From Thermoleophilaceae bacterium (GTDB lineage Bacteria > Actinomycetota > Thermoleophilia > Solirubrobacterales > Thermoleophilaceae): a stretch of DNA of 33,018 nt. A program made the position numbers and the translations under genes. Below the pieces are notes generated by a model, which made no database searches, had not been told where the DNA came from, and was given only the letters and a program-made list of their open reading frames with translations. Below are positions 25,801 through 32,532 of the stretch, in pieces (the first letter of the stretch is position 1; every line of letters starts with the position of its first letter). The stretch is from positions 1-33,018 of the forward strand of contig JACVRW010000025.1 of NCBI GenBank assembly GCA_014534235.1, written 5' to 3'.

Positions 25801-26440
25801 ACGGCGACGAAGGTCGGGCTTGTGCTCGGGGCCGGGGCGTGCTCGCAGGGGCCTGCCTCACCGGCGCGCTGGCTGCAAGCACCGGGAGAAGGAATGGGAT
25901 CCGGGGAGTGGTTCCCGCTCCGCCAGTCGCGCGGCAAGCCCTGCGGTCGGGGTGTCAGGAGAAAGTGGGGTTATAGAACCAAAAGTCCTGACACCCGCCG
26001 TCCGAGGGCGACCCCGGCCAACGGCAGCTCGCCGAGCGCGGAGTACATCCTGGGCACTTCGGCGGGCGCGATGATCGGGGCGCTCCTCGCGGGGCATCCC
26101 GCCGCGGTTCGCGGTCGCCCACTCGACCGGCCGGGTCTTCGATGACCTGCTCGGTCAAGACGGCCGCCCGACGGCCGACGCCGATCGCGCGGCCGGCGCC
26201 GTCTTAGGCTCCACCGCGGGTTGCCACGACTCGGACCGGCGTCGCTGCGGATGGCGACCACCGCCCTCGCTAACCCGCTGCGGCACACCCCGCTGCAGAT
26301 GGTGGTCGGCTGGCTTCCCAGCGGGCTGATCTCGACGGACCCGCTGGCCGAGACCGTGCGCCGCGCGGTCGCCGGTCGGTGGGTTCCAGCATCCGAACGT
26401 CAGCGCCGTTGCCTACTCGGTGCGCTCTCGGGCCGGGAGT
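25801..26440 (+). pseudogene. Patatin-like phospholipase pseudogene
   Basis: Fragments of one patatin-like protein appear in order but in changing frames. ATKVGLVLGAG (25804-25836) is preceded by ACG where ATG is expected. One base short, it resumes as GVLAGACLTGALAA. After an unrelated stretch holding a 47-bp palindrome comes SAEYILGTSAGAMIGALLAG (nucleophile elbow GTSAG). Another shift leads to RFAVAHSTGRVFDDLLGQDGRPTADADRAAG, another to LPRLGPASLRMATTALANPLRHTPLQMVVGWLPSGLIST, and a last shift near 26385 (extra C) to QHPNVSAVAYSVRS. The catalytic Asp (DGG) region was not found. At least four frame changes and an insertion mean this is not sequencing noise. It lies just upstream of the acyl-CoA synthetase, so both were probably in one lipid operon. 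Confidence 0.8.
25950..25996. repeat. 47-bp REP/MITE-like palindrome inside the patatin pseudogene
   Basis: Perfect 11-bp arms GGGTGTCAGGA (25950-25960) and TCCTGACACCC (25986-25996) enclose an inner GGTT-ATAG-AACC hairpin (25969-25980). The inner part is much more AT-rich than the surroundings. It resembles the REP-type palindromes mobilised by RAYT (TnpA_REP) transposases; no such transposase is in the window. Confidence 0.6.
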
Positions 26441-26523
26441 CGAAGTCGATGGTCGCGCGCAACCTCGAGCGTACGCTGCAGAATCTCGAGCTGCGCTTGA
26501 ATGCGAAAGGAGGTTCTGAGGAA

Positions 26524-28176
26524 GTGAGCGAGGAGGGCATGAGCCTGGCGGCGCGGATGGCGTACGTGCTCGGCGGCCTGAAGGTCTTGGTCGACGCCGG
26601 CGTGGCTCGCCCGATGCGTCCGGATCGGGCGTGGGGAGTGCTGCGCACGATCCAGAAGTGGGGTCGCAGCCCCGCGGCCGGCTCGATCTCGCTCGCCGAG
26701 CGCTTTCCGGACGAACCCATGATCGTCGACGAGCTCGGAGCGCTGACGTACTCCGAGGTGCACACGCGCACGAACGCGCTTGCCCATGCGCTCTCGGACG
26801 CCCGCGTCGTCGAGGGTGACGGTGTCGGCGTCATGTGCCGAAACCACCGGGGGTTCATCGAGTCGACCGTCGCGGTGTCGAAGCTCGGCGCGAACGCCCT
26901 CTACCTGAACACGGCGTTCGCCGCACCGCAGCTGGCCGACGTCGCGAGGCGCGAGGATCCGACCGCGATCGTCTACGATGAGGAGTTCCGCGGGCTGCTC
27001 GAGGAGGCCGGCCGGAGGCGCAAGCGCTTCGTCGCCTGGCACGACTCGGAGGCCTGCGACGACCCCACGCTCGATGAGCTGATCGCCGCGGGCGACCCCG
27101 GGGACGTGGTCCCGCCGGAGCGGGAGGGCCGGGCGGTGATCCTCACATCGGGCACCACGGGGGCGCCGAAGGGCGCGTCGCGAGCGAACCCGCAGTCACT
27201 CGACCCGGCCGTCTCTCTGCTCTCGAAGATCCCGCTGAAGGCCCGCCAGGTCTCGCACATCGCGGCGCCGCTCTTCCACTCCTGGGGGTTCGCCCATCTC
27301 GCCTTGGGGCTGATCCTGGGGACGACGTTCGTCCTGCGGCGCAAGTTCGAGCCCGAGGGCTGCCTCGCCGAGGTCGCGCGACACGGCTGCGACTCGCTGG
27401 TCGTCGTGCCGGTGATGCTGCAGCGGATCCTCGAGCTGCCGACGGAGACGCGCGCGAAGTACGACCTCTCCTCGCTCAAGGTGGTCGCGGCGAGCGGTTC
27501 GGCGCTCCCCGGCGATCTCGCGATCGAGTGGATGGACGAGTTCGGCGACAGCCTCTACAACCTCTACGGCTCGACCGAGGTGGCATGGGCGTCGATCGCC
27601 ACGCCCGTCGACATGCGCGTGGCTCCGGGGACGGCGGGCAAGCCGCCCCGCGGCACGGTCGTGCGCCTGTACGACGAGAACGGCAGGGAGGTGCCGCCTG
27701 GCGAGACCGGCCGCATCTTCGTCGGCAACGAGCTGGTCTTCGAGGGCTACACGGGAGGTGGATCGAAGGACTTCATCGACGGCCTCATAGCGACCGGCGA
27801 CGTGGGCCGCTTCGATGAGGGCGGACGGCTGTTCGTCGAGGGCCGCGACGACGAGATGATCGTCTCGGGCGGCGAGAACGTATTCCCGAAGGAGGTCGAG
27901 GACGTGCTCGCGCGTCACGAGGCGGTTTCCGACGTGGCCGCGATCGGCGTGGACGACAGGGACTTCGGCCAGCGTTTGAGGGCGTTCGTCGTGCTGGAGA
28001 AGGGGAAGCAGGCGACCGAGGACGACCTCAAGTCGTACGTCAAGTCGAACCTGGCGCGATACAAGGTCCCGCGGGAGATCGTCTTCCTCGACGCGCTGCC
28101 CCGCAACGCGACCGGCAAGGTGCTGAAACGCGAGCTGAGCACGCTTGAGCCTGAGGACGCCGGGACGAGGAAGTAG
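26524..28176 (+). CDS. Acyl-CoA synthetase (AMP-forming, FadD-like)
   Basis: The product is 550 aa. AMP-forming ligases activate fatty or aromatic acids to acyl-CoA. All motifs are intact: P-loop ILTSGTTGAPKGASR, FHSWGFAHLALGL, NLYGSTEVAWASIATP, the hinge region TGDVGRFDEGGRLFVEGRDDEMIVSGGENVFPKEVE and the catalytic Lys in PRNATGKVLKREL. GTG 26524 was chosen because AAAGGAGG (26506-26513) lies 10 nt upstream; ATG 26539 is an alternative with GAGGAGG too close. The frame continues upstream to 26221 but that part is patatin remnant in the same frame. The chain-length preference is unknown. It could feed the WS/DGAT at 10.35 kb. Confidence 0.9.
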   Translation: MSEEGMSLAARMAYVLGGLKVLVDAGVARPMRPDRAWGVLRTIQKWGRSPAAGSISLAERFPDEPMIVDELGALTYSEVHTRTNALAHALSDARVVEGDGVGVMCRNHRGFIESTVAVSKLGANALYLNTAFAAPQLADVARREDPTAIVYDEEFRGLLEEAGRRRKRFVAWHDSEACDDPTLDELIAAGDPGDVVPPEREGRAVILTSGTTGAPKGASRANPQSLDPAVSLLSKIPLKARQVSHIAAPLFHSWGFAHLALGLILGTTFVLRRKFEPEGCLAEVARHGCDSLVVVPVMLQRILELPTETRAKYDLSSLKVVAASGSALPGDLAIEWMDEFGDSLYNLYGSTEVAWASIATPVDMRVAPGTAGKPPRGTVVRLYDENGREVPPGETGRIFVGNELVFEGYTGGGSKDFIDGLIATGDVGRFDEGGRLFVEGRDDEMIVSGGENVFPKEVEDVLARHEAVSDVAAIGVDDRDFGQRLRAFVVLEKGKQATEDDLKSYVKSNLARYKVPREIVFLDALPRNATGKVLKRELSTLEPEDAGTRK

Positions 28177-28263: not shown

Positions 28264-28584
28264 ATGAGCACAGGACTATGGATCGTGATCATCGTGGCAG
28301 TGCTGATCGTGCTCGCCCTGCTCGTGTGGACGAGCACGCGGGCGCGGCACCGGAGGCTCGACGCGCGCAGAGACGAAGCGCGCGAGATTCGGCGCGAGGC
28401 GGAGGTCCGCGGCGCCGAGGCCGACCGAATCGCCGCCGAGGCGGAGGAACGAGCCGCGCGCGCCCGTCAGGAGGAGGCGAAGGCGCGCGAACAGGCCGCG
28501 CGCGCGGAGGAGCACAAGCAGGAGGCGGAGGCGCACCGCGAGCGCGCGGAAGCGGTCGACCCGGACGCCGACAGGAGAGAGTGA
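28264..28584 (+). CDS. Membrane-anchored coiled-coil protein (106 aa)
   Basis: One N-terminal transmembrane helix (LWIVIIVAVLIVLALLVW, about 5-22) is followed by an uninterrupted charged helix rich in Arg, Glu and Ala (RREAEVRGAEADRIAAEAEE, then repeated AR-EEA patterns), ending VDPDADRRE. This is a simple type-II-like anchored coiled coil. No enzymatic motif. AAGGAAGG (28252-28259) supports ATG 28264. A weak hairpin AATCCC/GGGATT at 28220-28242 lies between it and the acyl-CoA synthetase. Similar small proteins are common in actinobacteria; role unknown. Confidence 0.7.
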   Translation: MSTGLWIVIIVAVLIVLALLVWTSTRARHRRLDARRDEAREIRREAEVRGAEADRIAAEAEERAARARQEEAKAREQAARAEEHKQEAEAHRERAEAVDPDADRRE

Positions 28585-28708: not shown

Positions 28709-29320
28709 TCAGCCGCAGACCGGCCAGTGACGCGGGCCGTCGCGGCTCAATAGCAACCAAGCGCGCCATGTCTGCTCCGACCGCGGCGCCGCCGCGGGGT
28801 CGCCCGACCCGCCGACGACTCGCCACGTCCGGAAGGTGAACTGGTAGAGCCCCCGGAACACGCCGCCGCCGCCGATCGCGCGCGGCCTGTGTCGCGACTC
28901 ACACCACGCGATCCGGCGCAGATGGCTCCGGCCCCAGTCCGGGATCGTTCGCACCTTGGCGGCGAACCGCACCGCGCGCCCCCGAGGGGAGCGCAGGAAG
29001 CGATAGAAGCGCCGGCGCATGCGGTCAAGCGACTCGCGGAGCCGGCGCGCCGCGGGCAGCCGGCGCTCCCTGCGCGCAGCGTGGAGCAGGTTGCGCCCGC
29101 GCCATAGATCGTGGCGTCCGAGCCTCCGGTGCCAGTGCCGGTACGCCCGCTTCAGCCGCTCGGTCGCCGGTCGTGCCGGCGCGGCGGGCGCCGTCTCACC
29201 ACCGGCCGCCGTGGTGTCGCCGGTCGTCGCGGGCTGCTGTGCAGGCTCCTGCCCGATTGCCGGCGCCGCCGCGGTCGAGAACGCGAACGCGAACGCCAGC
29301 AGACTCCCCGCCTTCTTCAT
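28709..29320 (-). CDS. Secreted Rpf-like transglycosylase
   Basis: The product is 203 aa. The signal peptide (MKKAGSLLAFAFAFSTAAAPAIGQ) is followed by a Pro/Thr/Ala linker, a basic helical region (55-125, very Arg-rich) and a C-terminal transglycosylase-like domain. The domain reads LRRIAWCESRHRPRAIGGGGVFRGLYQFTFRTWRVVGGSGDPAAAPRSEQ in order, then VCG at the very end. E141 is the catalytic Glu; C140 and C202 can form the Rpf disulfide. Rpf-type enzymes cleave peptidoglycan and stimulate regrowth. ATG 29320 has AGGGG 6 nt upstream. The 73-aa half-domain gene ends 13 bp before it on the same strand, so the two form an operon. Confidence 0.85.
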   Translation of the reverse strand: MKKAGSLLAFAFAFSTAAAPAIGQEPAQQPATTGDTTAAGGETAPAAPARPATERLKRAYRHWHRRLGRHDLWRGRNLLHAARRERRLPAARRLRESLDRMRRRFYRFLRSPRGRAVRFAAKVRTIPDWGRSHLRRIAWCESRHRPRAIGGGGVFRGLYQFTFRTWRVVGGSGDPAAAPRSEQTWRAWLLLSRDGPRHWPVCG

Positions 29321-29333
29321 GAGGTCCCCTGTC

Positions 29334-29555
29334 TCAGCCGCCGCAGGCGGGCCCGTGGCCCGCGCCCTGACGGGCGAGGAGCATCGCCGCACGGCGGTCC
29401 TGCTCGGCCTCCAGAGCGGCCGCCGGGTCGCCCATTCCGAACACCGACCGCCACGTCTCGTACTGCTCTTCGGCGAGCTCCTGGGCCGTCGCAGCGGCGG
29501 ATGCCGCCGCTGCGGCAGCGCACGCGCACGTCAGGACCGCTCGTCTTCGTGACAA
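29334..29555 (-). CDS. Small secreted protein with only the C-terminal half of an Rpf domain
   Basis: TTG 29555 to TGA 29334-29336, 73 aa. The signal peptide (SRRRAVLTCACAAAAAASAAATAQ) is followed by QYETWRSVFGMGDPAAALEAEQ, DRRAAMLLARQGAG and a final CGG. Residues 32-73 align with residues 163-203 of the next gene product (TWRxVxGxGDPAAAxxxEQxxRAxxLLxRxG), but the catalytic CES part is missing. The TTG start is supported by GGAGGTGAT (29570-29562), a nine-base match to the 16S anti-Shine-Dalgarno, and by a signal peptide starting there. The remaining Cys has no obvious partner in the domain. It may be a deletion remnant or a non-catalytic partner. Confidence 0.7.
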   Translation of the reverse strand: MSRRRAVLTCACAAAAAASAAATAQELAEEQYETWRSVFGMGDPAAALEAEQDRRAAMLLARQGAGHGPACGG

Positions 29556-29561: not shown

Positions 29562-29707
29562 ATCACCTCCGGGTGAACTGCCCGGCCGAGCGCCGGAGCG
29601 CCGCCAGGGCTTGCCGCGGCCGCGCGGGACATGGCACGCGACCGGGGCCGTCTTACCGCCGCCGCCCAAGCCGAGCTCGCGAGGCGACGCCTTACGACAA
29701 CGCGGTC

Positions 29708-29740: not shown

Positions 29741-29758
29741 GTGTGATGCATCTCACAC
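29741..29758. promoter_or_regulatory. CRP/GlxR-type binding site
   Basis: TGTGA (29742-29746), TGCATC, TCACA (29753-29757): a perfect consensus for cAMP receptor-family proteins, extended to 6-bp arms GTGTGA/TCACAC. It lies about 187 nt upstream of the half-Rpf start, just upstream of the tentative promoter, and downstream of the pepA stop. In Mycobacterium CRP (Rv3676) regulates rpfA, and in Corynebacterium GlxR acts on rpf2, so the placement is consistent with known Rpf control. Confidence 0.65.
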
Positions 29759-29810: not shown

Positions 29811-31262
29811 TCACGCGGACGCGCGCCTGGCCAGCTCGATCAGCGTCCTCGTGCCGAACCCGGAGGCCCCCTTGCCGGTGTAGTTCCGGGCCAGCCCCCA
29901 GGCCGTGCCGGCGATGTCCATGTGCACCCAGGGCCGGTCGTCCACGAATTGGCGCAGGAACTCCGCCGCATAGCTGGAGCTGGCGACCCGCTGCTCAGCC
30001 GCGTTGGTCAGATCGGCGTACTCGCCCTTGGTCAGTTCGAGGAACTCCGGGTGCAGGGGCATCCGCCAGCCGATCTCGCCCGTCGCGGCGCCCGCCGACT
30101 CGACCTGCGTGCACCACTCGTCGTCGTTCGAGAAGACGCCCGCGTACGTGTGGCCGAGCGCGACGACGATCGCTCCGGTCAGCGTCGCCAGGTCGACGAT
30201 GCGCTCGACGCCCTGCTCGATCGCGTAGCACAGGGCGTCCGCGAGGATCAGGCGCCCCTCGGCGTCCGTGTTGTTGACCTCGATCGTCTTGCGGTTCATC
30301 GCGGTGACGATGTCGCCCGGCTTGGTCGCCCGGCCGCTCGGCATGTTCTCGGTGGCTGGGACGACGGCGGTGATGGTCGCCGGCAGCCCGAGCTCCGCGA
30401 CGGCCCCGACCGCCTCGATCACGGCCGCGCCGCCCGACATGTCGAACTTCATCTCGTGCATCTTGGCGCTGGGCTTGATCGAGATCCCGCCCGTGTCGAA
30501 TGTGACGGCCTTGCCCACGAAGCCCAGATGCGGCCCGCGGGCCCCGGCCGGTCGGTGCCGCAGCACGATCAGGCGCGGGTCGGCGTCGGTGCCGCGGGCC
30601 ACCGCGATGAATGCCCCCATCCCGCGCGCGGCGATCGCGTCCCTGTCGAGGAGCTCGACCTCGAGCGACTCGTGCTGCTCGGCGATCTCGGCGGCGCGCT
30701 CGGCGAGGAAGGTGGGCGTGGCGACGTTCGAGGGCAGGTTCTGGAGCTCGCGGGCCGCGTTGGCCGCGGCGGCGAGCACCCTGGCGTACTCGACCTCGTC
30801 CGCGTCCACGTCATCGCCCGCCACCTCGAGCGACTCGATCCCCTCCTCTCCTTCCTCCGGCCGCTCGGACTTGAAGCGGTCGAAACGGTAGAGGCGCAGG
30901 AGCGTCCCCTCCACGAGCGCGCCGGCCACGCCGTCGCCCGCCGGCACGGCCCACGACAGCGACACGGCACCGAGGTCCTTCGCCCTTGCCGCCGCGGCCG
31001 CCGCGGCGACGCGGGCGCGCTCGGCGTCGAACTGCTCTCGCTTCCCAAGGCCCGCGACCAGCACCCGACGCTCGCCTCCGCCGGGAGCGTTCTCATGCGC
31101 GAGCGCAACCTTCTTCAGGCCCGGCTTCGCCTCCCCGAGATCGACGAGTCGCCGGAGCAGCGGGTCGGCCGGCGTCTCGCCCTCGAAGAGGCCGACGACC
31201 CTCGTGTCGGCGGCCGTCTCCTCCGGGGCGCCGCGGCGCGCTGTCACGGTCAGGTTGGCCAT
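29811..31262 (-). CDS. pepA: Leucyl aminopeptidase (M17)
   Basis: The product is 483 aa, the normal length. M17 aminopeptidases remove N-terminal residues using two metal ions. The C-terminal catalytic domain shows GKAVTFDTGGISIKPSAKMHEMKFDMSGGAAV (metal ligands Lys and Asp), NTDAEGRLILADAL (the M17 signature, with Asp, Glu and Arg) and DLATLTGAIVVALGHTYAGVF. The N-terminal macro-like domain is present (VVGLFEGETPADPLLRRLVDLGEA, RVLVAGLGKREQFDAERARVAAA). The frame is open further upstream, but ATG 31262 (MANLTVTARRG) is family-like and TAAACT lies 10 nt before it. It is divergent from the thiolase across an 85-bp region holding an inverted repeat. Confidence 0.92.
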   Translation of the reverse strand: MANLTVTARRGAPEETAADTRVVGLFEGETPADPLLRRLVDLGEAKPGLKKVALAHENAPGGGERRVLVAGLGKREQFDAERARVAAAAAAARAKDLGAVSLSWAVPAGDGVAGALVEGTLLRLYRFDRFKSERPEEGEEGIESLEVAGDDVDADEVEYARVLAAAANAARELQNLPSNVATPTFLAERAAEIAEQHESLEVELLDRDAIAARGMGAFIAVARGTDADPRLIVLRHRPAGARGPHLGFVGKAVTFDTGGISIKPSAKMHEMKFDMSGGAAVIEAVGAVAELGLPATITAVVPATENMPSGRATKPGDIVTAMNRKTIEVNNTDAEGRLILADALCYAIEQGVERIVDLATLTGAIVVALGHTYAGVFSNDDEWCTQVESAGAATGEIGWRMPLHPEFLELTKGEYADLTNAAEQRVASSSYAAEFLRQFVDDRPWVHMDIAGTAWGLARNYTGKGASGFGTRTLIELARRASA

Positions 31263-31272
31263 GGGCCGCGGC

Positions 31273-31278
31273 AGTTTA
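31273..31278 (-). promoter_or_regulatory. -10-like TAAACT of pepA
   Basis: Minus strand TAAACT, then 10 nt, then ATG 31262, with no Shine-Dalgarno. The leader would be at most a few nucleotides. Confidence 0.4.
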
Positions 31279-31279
31279 C

Positions 31280-31302
31280 CCGGGACCAGCGCCGCGTCCC
31301 GG
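31280..31302. promoter_or_regulatory. Inverted repeat between pepA and thiolase promoters
   Basis: CCGGGAC (31280-31286) and GTCCCGG (31296-31302) are perfect 7-bp arms around 9 nt. Each CGGGAC arm lies exactly 17 bp from the -10-like hexamer of one gene (TAAACT, TATCGT), so it covers both -35 positions. It looks like a shared operator. Confidence 0.4.
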
Positions 31303-31303
31303 A

Positions 31304-31309
31304 TATCGT
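31304..31309 (+). promoter_or_regulatory. -10-like TATCGT of the thiolase gene
   Basis: TATCGT precedes a leader of about 30 nt with AAAGGAGA before ATG 31348. Unlike the leaderless genes of this window, this one has a ribosome binding site. Confidence 0.35.
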
Positions 31310-31347
31310 TCAACGCGCCCGGCAGAGATCCCAAAGGAGACCCAGCA

Positions 31348-32532
31348 ATGCCCAAGACCGTGATTCTCGGCGCAGCCCGGACGCCGTTCGGCAAGCTCGG
31401 CGGCGGCCTTTCGACGCTCGACGCCACGGAGCTCGGCGGCAGGGCGATCGGGGCCGCTCTCGAGCGCGCCGAGGTGGCGCCCGAGCAGGTGGAGGAAGTC
31501 GTCTTCGGCCAGGTGCTGCAGGCGGGCCAGGGGCAGATCCCGAGCCGTCAGGCGCAGATCAAGGCGGGCATCCCGAAGGAGGTGCCCTCGGCGACCGTGA
31601 ACAAGGTGTGCGCGTCGGGGATTCGCTCCGTGGGGATCGTCGACCAAACCGTGCGCGCCGGCGACGTCGACGTTGCCGTGGCCGGCGGCATGGAGTCGAT
31701 GTCCCAGGCGCCCTACCTCCTGAAGCAGGCCCGCTTCGGCTTCCGGATGGGCGATGCCAAGGCGCTCGACGAGATGGTCTACGACGGCCTGCGCAACCCG
31801 TTCACCGGCAAGCACATGGGCGAGGAGGCCGACGAGGTGGGCGAGGAGCTCGAGATCACCCGAGCCGACATGGACAAGTTCGCGCTGCGCTCCCACGAGT
31901 TCGCGCTCCAGGCGACCGAGGAGGGGCGGCTGCCTGAGGAGATCGTCTCGGTCACGGTCAAGTCAAAGAAGGGCGATACGACCGTCGAGGTCGACGAGGG
32001 GCCCCGGCGGGAGACCTCGCTCGAGGCGCTGTCGAAGCTGCGCGGGGCGTTCCACGACGGCGGGGCGCACACCGCCGGAAATGCCCCCGGGGTCAATGAC
32101 GGCGCCGGCGCCCTCGTGCTCAGCTCGGACGAGTGGGCCCGCAGCAACGACCGCGAGCCGCTCGCCACGATCGTGGCCCAGGCGGCGGTGGCGGATGAGT
32201 TCCCATACCTGGCCCGCACGCCCGCCAACGCGGCGACGAAGGCGCTCGAGAAGGCCGGTCTCTCGGTGGATGACATCGACCTGTTCGAGATCAACGAGGC
32301 CTTCGCGTCGGTGGCCCTCAACTCGATGCGCATGCTCGGCGTCGACGAGTCGAAGGTGAACGTCAACGGCGGCGCGATCGCGCTCGGCCACCCGATCGGC
32401 GCGAGCGGGGCGCGAATCCTGATTACGCTCGCGCTCGAGTTGCGCCGGCGGGGCGGCGGGCTCGGCTGCGCCGCGATCTGCTCGGGCGGGGGCCAGGGCG
32501 ACGCGGTGATCATCGAGGTAGATGGCGGCTGA
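31348..32532 (+). CDS. Acetyl-CoA C-acetyltransferase (thiolase)
   Basis: The product is 394 aa. Biosynthetic/degradative thiolases join or split acetoacetyl-CoA. The nucleophile Cys lies in VNKVCASGIRSV, the second motif is GGAIALGHPIGASGARI, and the acid/base Cys is in AAICSGGGQGDAV. NEAFASVALNSMRMLGV supplies the conserved NEAF. All catalytic parts are intact. AAAGGAGA (31333-31340) supports ATG 31348. The last 11 bp overlap the HAD-IB gene, so these two are coupled. An atoB/phaA-like or fadA-like role cannot be separated from sequence alone. Confidence 0.92.
   Translation: MPKTVILGAARTPFGKLGGGLSTLDATELGGRAIGAALERAEVAPEQVEEVVFGQVLQAGQGQIPSRQAQIKAGIPKEVPSATVNKVCASGIRSVGIVDQTVRAGDVDVAVAGGMESMSQAPYLLKQARFGFRMGDAKALDEMVYDGLRNPFTGKHMGEEADEVGEELEITRADMDKFALRSHEFALQATEEGRLPEEIVSVTVKSKKGDTTVEVDEGPRRETSLEALSKLRGAFHDGGAHTAGNAPGVNDGAGALVLSSDEWARSNDREPLATIVAQAAVADEFPYLARTPANAATKALEKAGLSVDDIDLFEINEAFASVALNSMRMLGVDESKVNVNGGAIALGHPIGASGARILITLALELRRRGGGLGCAAICSGGGQGDAVIIEVDGG

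Follow-up and report, generated by a model that had tools for sequence, protein, structure and literature searches.

Is a small open frame that joins a secretion signal to half of an enzymatic domain, directly in front of the gene for a complete enzyme of the same kind, a new regulator or a gene on its way out? The question is raised by a stretch of 33,018 nucleotides from a Thermoleophilaceae bacterium (hereafter the window; positions are in its coordinates unless a locus is named), in which an earlier note had seen a 73-aa protein with the C-terminal half of an Rpf domain upstream of a full-length Rpf-like gene, and had read it as either a deletion remnant or a non-catalytic modulator of the active enzyme. 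Our comparison favours the former. With a probability of roughly 0.87, the small ORF is the remnant left when the leading gene in an operon of two rpf genes lost about 114 codons in frame; judged from the sequences, ordinary gene decay and no new regulator is the most likely account, because a close relative holds the full-length gene at the same position.

The small ORF (29334-29555, minus strand, 73 aa) begins with a TTG codon 7 nt past the Shine-Dalgarno sequence GGAGGTGA and encodes a Tat-like or secretory N-terminus, SRRRAVLTCACAAAAAASAAATAQ, fused to the C-terminal half of PF06737. Its residues 32-71 match positions 35-77 of the 77 in the profile (start 35-36; E 1.4e-4, 22.9 bits), which is below the gathering cut-off of 27 bits and falls short of a complete domain. 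A PDB sequence search pairs the protein with the second half of the RpfC and RpfE structures, and since profile and structures match over the same half, the homology to Rpf is real. The protein resembles the C-terminal half of RpfC, RpfE and RpfB of M. tuberculosis over TW...PxCG, but in contrast to them lacks the first helix, the CES segment and with it the catalytic Glu, the first Cys and the core Trp, so that only the C-terminal Cys of the disulfide pair is kept. The coordinates and features described earlier, including the 13 bp between the stop codon and the ATG of the complete gene, are thus confirmed. AF2 predicts two helices for the protein alone (pTM 0.31); an alignment of it to the whole domain was dropped for structure prediction, as it misaligned the signal peptide onto CES.

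The complete neighbour, gene 2 (28709-29320, minus strand), encodes an Rpf-like transglycosylase-domain protein of 203 aa with signal peptide, helical linker, PF06737 and CES (Glu141). Its profile match (5-77, E 2.5e-13, 50.9 bits) is over the cut-off, and the CES Glu and both Cys are present (WCES...WPVCG). Like the M. tuberculosis Rpf proteins, it has the whole domain and a predicted Rpf fold: it matches the whole RpfE and RpfC domains in the PDB sequence search, its AF2 model is a confident Rpf domain with a domain pLDDT of about 96, and Foldseek relates this model to RpfE, RpfC and RpfB (4cge, TMt 0.81). Given these intact catalytic residues, the activity of the operon is probably carried by gene 2. 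One more PF06737 protein over the cut-off lies on another contig of the window genome and reads as a PG-binding/Rpf fusion, its PG-binding part being assigned by reading the sequence and not by family search. Gene 2 itself is an unusual Rpf paralogue with CESRHRP, RGLYQF and EQTWRAWLLLSR (28709-29320; G001 L109 1-77), and its C-terminal end is common to the window and G001.

The probable origin of the small ORF emerges from the genus, which was sampled with three genomes: that of the window, G001 and G002. In the window the rpf pair lies between pepA, an M17 leucyl aminopeptidase gene (29811-31427, minus strand), upstream, and, on the other side, a small putative single-pass membrane protein gene (28264-28584, plus strand) convergent with gene 2, followed by an AMP-binding ligase gene (26221-28176, plus strand). 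In G001 a full-length rpf gene of 187 aa with linker, complete domain (PF06737 2-77, E 1.6e-18) and CES directly follows pepA on the same strand at the same site. The two genomes are colinear from thiolase through pepA and the leader into the signal peptide, with 78% nucleotide identity (G001 L037 2620-5601 against window 32519-29506); they share a CRP-like palindrome, the leader, the Shine-Dalgarno sequence and the SRRR...ACACAA signal peptide, and in the retained half the G001 protein is 67% identical to the small ORF. Where the window ORF has its TTG start, the G001 gene has CTG only (L037 5552). The gene that follows G001 gene 1 begins at an overlapping GTGA, at which the contig stops; a second G001 contig opens inside gene 2 (its last 24 aa, 83% identical) and continues through the convergent membrane protein and the AMP ligase in the order of the window. 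With the end of gene 1 and the start of gene 2 on one contig and the end of gene 2 on another, G001 therefore has the rpf pair, with gene 1 full-length. The earlier note had named a full-length counterpart in relatives as the sign of a local deletion, and such a counterpart, with CES and at the same locus, is what G001 has, down to a shared leader and signal peptide. G002 has no rpf between pepA and the membrane protein; what lies there is a gene that resembles a GH3 beta-glucosidase (L081 4430-6815), a label taken from sequence reading and not from a family search. A single site within one genus thus carries a pair, a truncated pair or a GH3-like gene, an instance of rpf gene turnover within this actinobacterial order.

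We propose that the ancestor shared with G001 would have had pepA followed by a full-length rpf gene 1 and by gene 2, the latter two presumably co-transcribed. The window lineage would then have lost about 114 codons of gene 1 in frame, namely those for the linker and for the N-terminal half of the lysozyme-like domain, to which both the catalytic Glu and the disulfide Cys belong; it would have kept the promoter region, leader, Shine-Dalgarno sequence, signal peptide and C-terminal half. What is left may be decaying and would be devoid of muralytic activity, and gene 2, with its catalytic Glu and predicted intact fold, would supply that of the operon. The reverse order, in which a short gene was ancestral and the G001 gene was lengthened, is formally permitted by the data. 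Counting against a remnant are the frame, intact from start to stop, the perfect Shine-Dalgarno sequence, the CTG start that gene 1 of G001 would require, and the fact that gene 1 is full-length in one congener only. About 12 residues 5' of ETW in the small ORF have no match in G001 better than shuffled sequences, and, this bridging segment being no better than shuffles, exact deletion breakpoints relative to G001 could not be placed.

The changes in the retained half point in the same direction as the synteny. A comparison with 57 distinct full domains shows two residues, invariant in all 57, that are altered in the small ORF: G37F, which replaces the first G of GG, and W66G, which replaces the core W of WPxCG. 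None of the 57 full domains itself departs from the invariant sites more than once. At variable sites, gene 2 and one Streptomyces protein equal or exceed the small ORF in residues of their own. The RpfC counterpart of W66 is Trp73, which forms part of a hydrophobic pocket close to the catalytic Glu. The remaining Cys matches Cys76 of RpfC, and this pairs with Cys15 in the CES segment, hence in the lost half; a published study notes that muralytic activity is impaired when one or both of these cysteines are replaced (PMC4648573). The check for purifying selection that had been suggested gave a divided answer. The pairwise dN/dS against G001 over the 40 retained codons is about 0.15, a value to be expected of a truncation that postdates the divergence from G001. 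In a codon model, underpowered at 39 codons, the small-ORF branch has an omega of 0.58 against a background of 0.045 and against 0.007-0.12 for the seven other terminal branches tested, and neither the background rate (p 0.17) nor neutrality (omega=1; p 0.84) is rejected.

The earlier note had suggested looking for the same small Glu-less gene beside Rpf in related genomes. A survey of the 31 genomes of the family revealed no conserved half-Rpf; all the remaining PF06737 matches that exceed the cut-off there span 2-9 to 77 and are complete; the tandem rpf genes of G026 are both complete as well. Among 101 relatives, comparably short open frames (86-87 aa) occur at contig ends only, and a GTDB contig scan returned no same-species record. 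The order-wide PF06737 search (232 genomes) refers to the matches listed, weak ones excluded, and the absence of half-Rpf genes holds for the family only. A second decayed 3' half of an rpf gene is present in G010 (L110 1818-1910), from which we conclude that rpf remnants occur in this family. It likewise consists of the second half of the domain alone, but differs from the small ORF in lacking a signal peptide, in its frameshifted end and in its locus.

Several other explanations have to be weighed against a truncated remnant. The one that fares best, although we consider it unlikely, is that the short ORF serves as a leader cistron, which through its Shine-Dalgarno sequence and by being translated would hold the mRNA open and promote translation of gene 2, so that the frame is selected and the protein sequence is not. 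The overlap of the G001 genes at GTGA is an arrangement of translational coupling, and the 13 bp gap in the window, together with a frame kept while conserved residues change, would suit such a role; however, gene 2 has an SD-like AGGGGA of its own before its ATG, and a single recent deletion stays in frame with a chance of one in three. The role fits the data and is compatible with a remnant. The strong ribosome binding site had earlier been taken to suggest translation. Its perfect sequence stands and is the same in G001, with one proviso: the site lies in a possible 5-bp hairpin, TCACC-CGGA-GGTGA (29563-29576, minus strand; UCACC-CGGA-GGUGA in the RNA), so that its strength alone is no proof of strong translation. 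That the half-Rpf is translated and secreted, and has been retained to tune the downstream Rpf in the role of a leader cistron or of a non-catalytic partner, appears to us highly improbable. The same applies, slightly more strictly, to a functional secreted partner that would modulate the downstream Rpf, for instance by binding peptidoglycan or the enzyme: the open frame, the perfect Shine-Dalgarno sequence, the retained secretion signal and the mean dN/dS agree with it, but it is absent from the relatives searched, has lost the core Trp, the invariant Gly and the disulfide partner, and is predicted as two helices at low pTM, which leaves the proposed modulator without positive support. Equally remote is an assembly error in a really full-length gene, for although the window assembly is a fragmented, metagenome-type one (197 contigs, 84% complete) and the rpf pair region seems hard to assemble, because the G001 contig breaks exactly there, the frame continues across the junction, and a mis-join would not create the changed family-invariant residues.

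The small ORF is accordingly best regarded as an ordinary, partly decayed gene, and the case advises caution: a secreted 'half-enzyme' beside a full-length relative can be explicable by comparing one neighbouring species.

The leader shared by the window genome and G001 has features of its own. Both have a strong hairpin, GCCCTGGCGG...CCGGGC, with CCCGGAGGTGA after it (window 29563-29625, minus strand; L037 5495-5545). A riboswitch reading of the leader was dropped, as an Rfam search for known RNAs gave no match. The CCGGG arm of the hairpin could pair with CCCGG 5' of the Shine-Dalgarno sequence. Farther upstream, a CRP-type palindrome, TGTGAGATGCATCACA in minus-strand reading (29742-29757), lies 5' of the rpf pair and is also present in G001. 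A perfect TGTGAN6TCACA palindrome precedes 10 of the 57 rpf domains examined, that of the window included (further sites at L009 180-195, L015 910-925, L017 1002-1017, L021 2108-2123 and L068 684-699, and in L013, L019, L020 and L052); within the rpf-bearing loci covered here it occurs at no other place. In M. tuberculosis, rpfA is activated by CRP (PMC8026907). By analogy, the putative CRP-type sites before rpf suggest that cAMP control of the mycobacterial rpfA type may reach this order.
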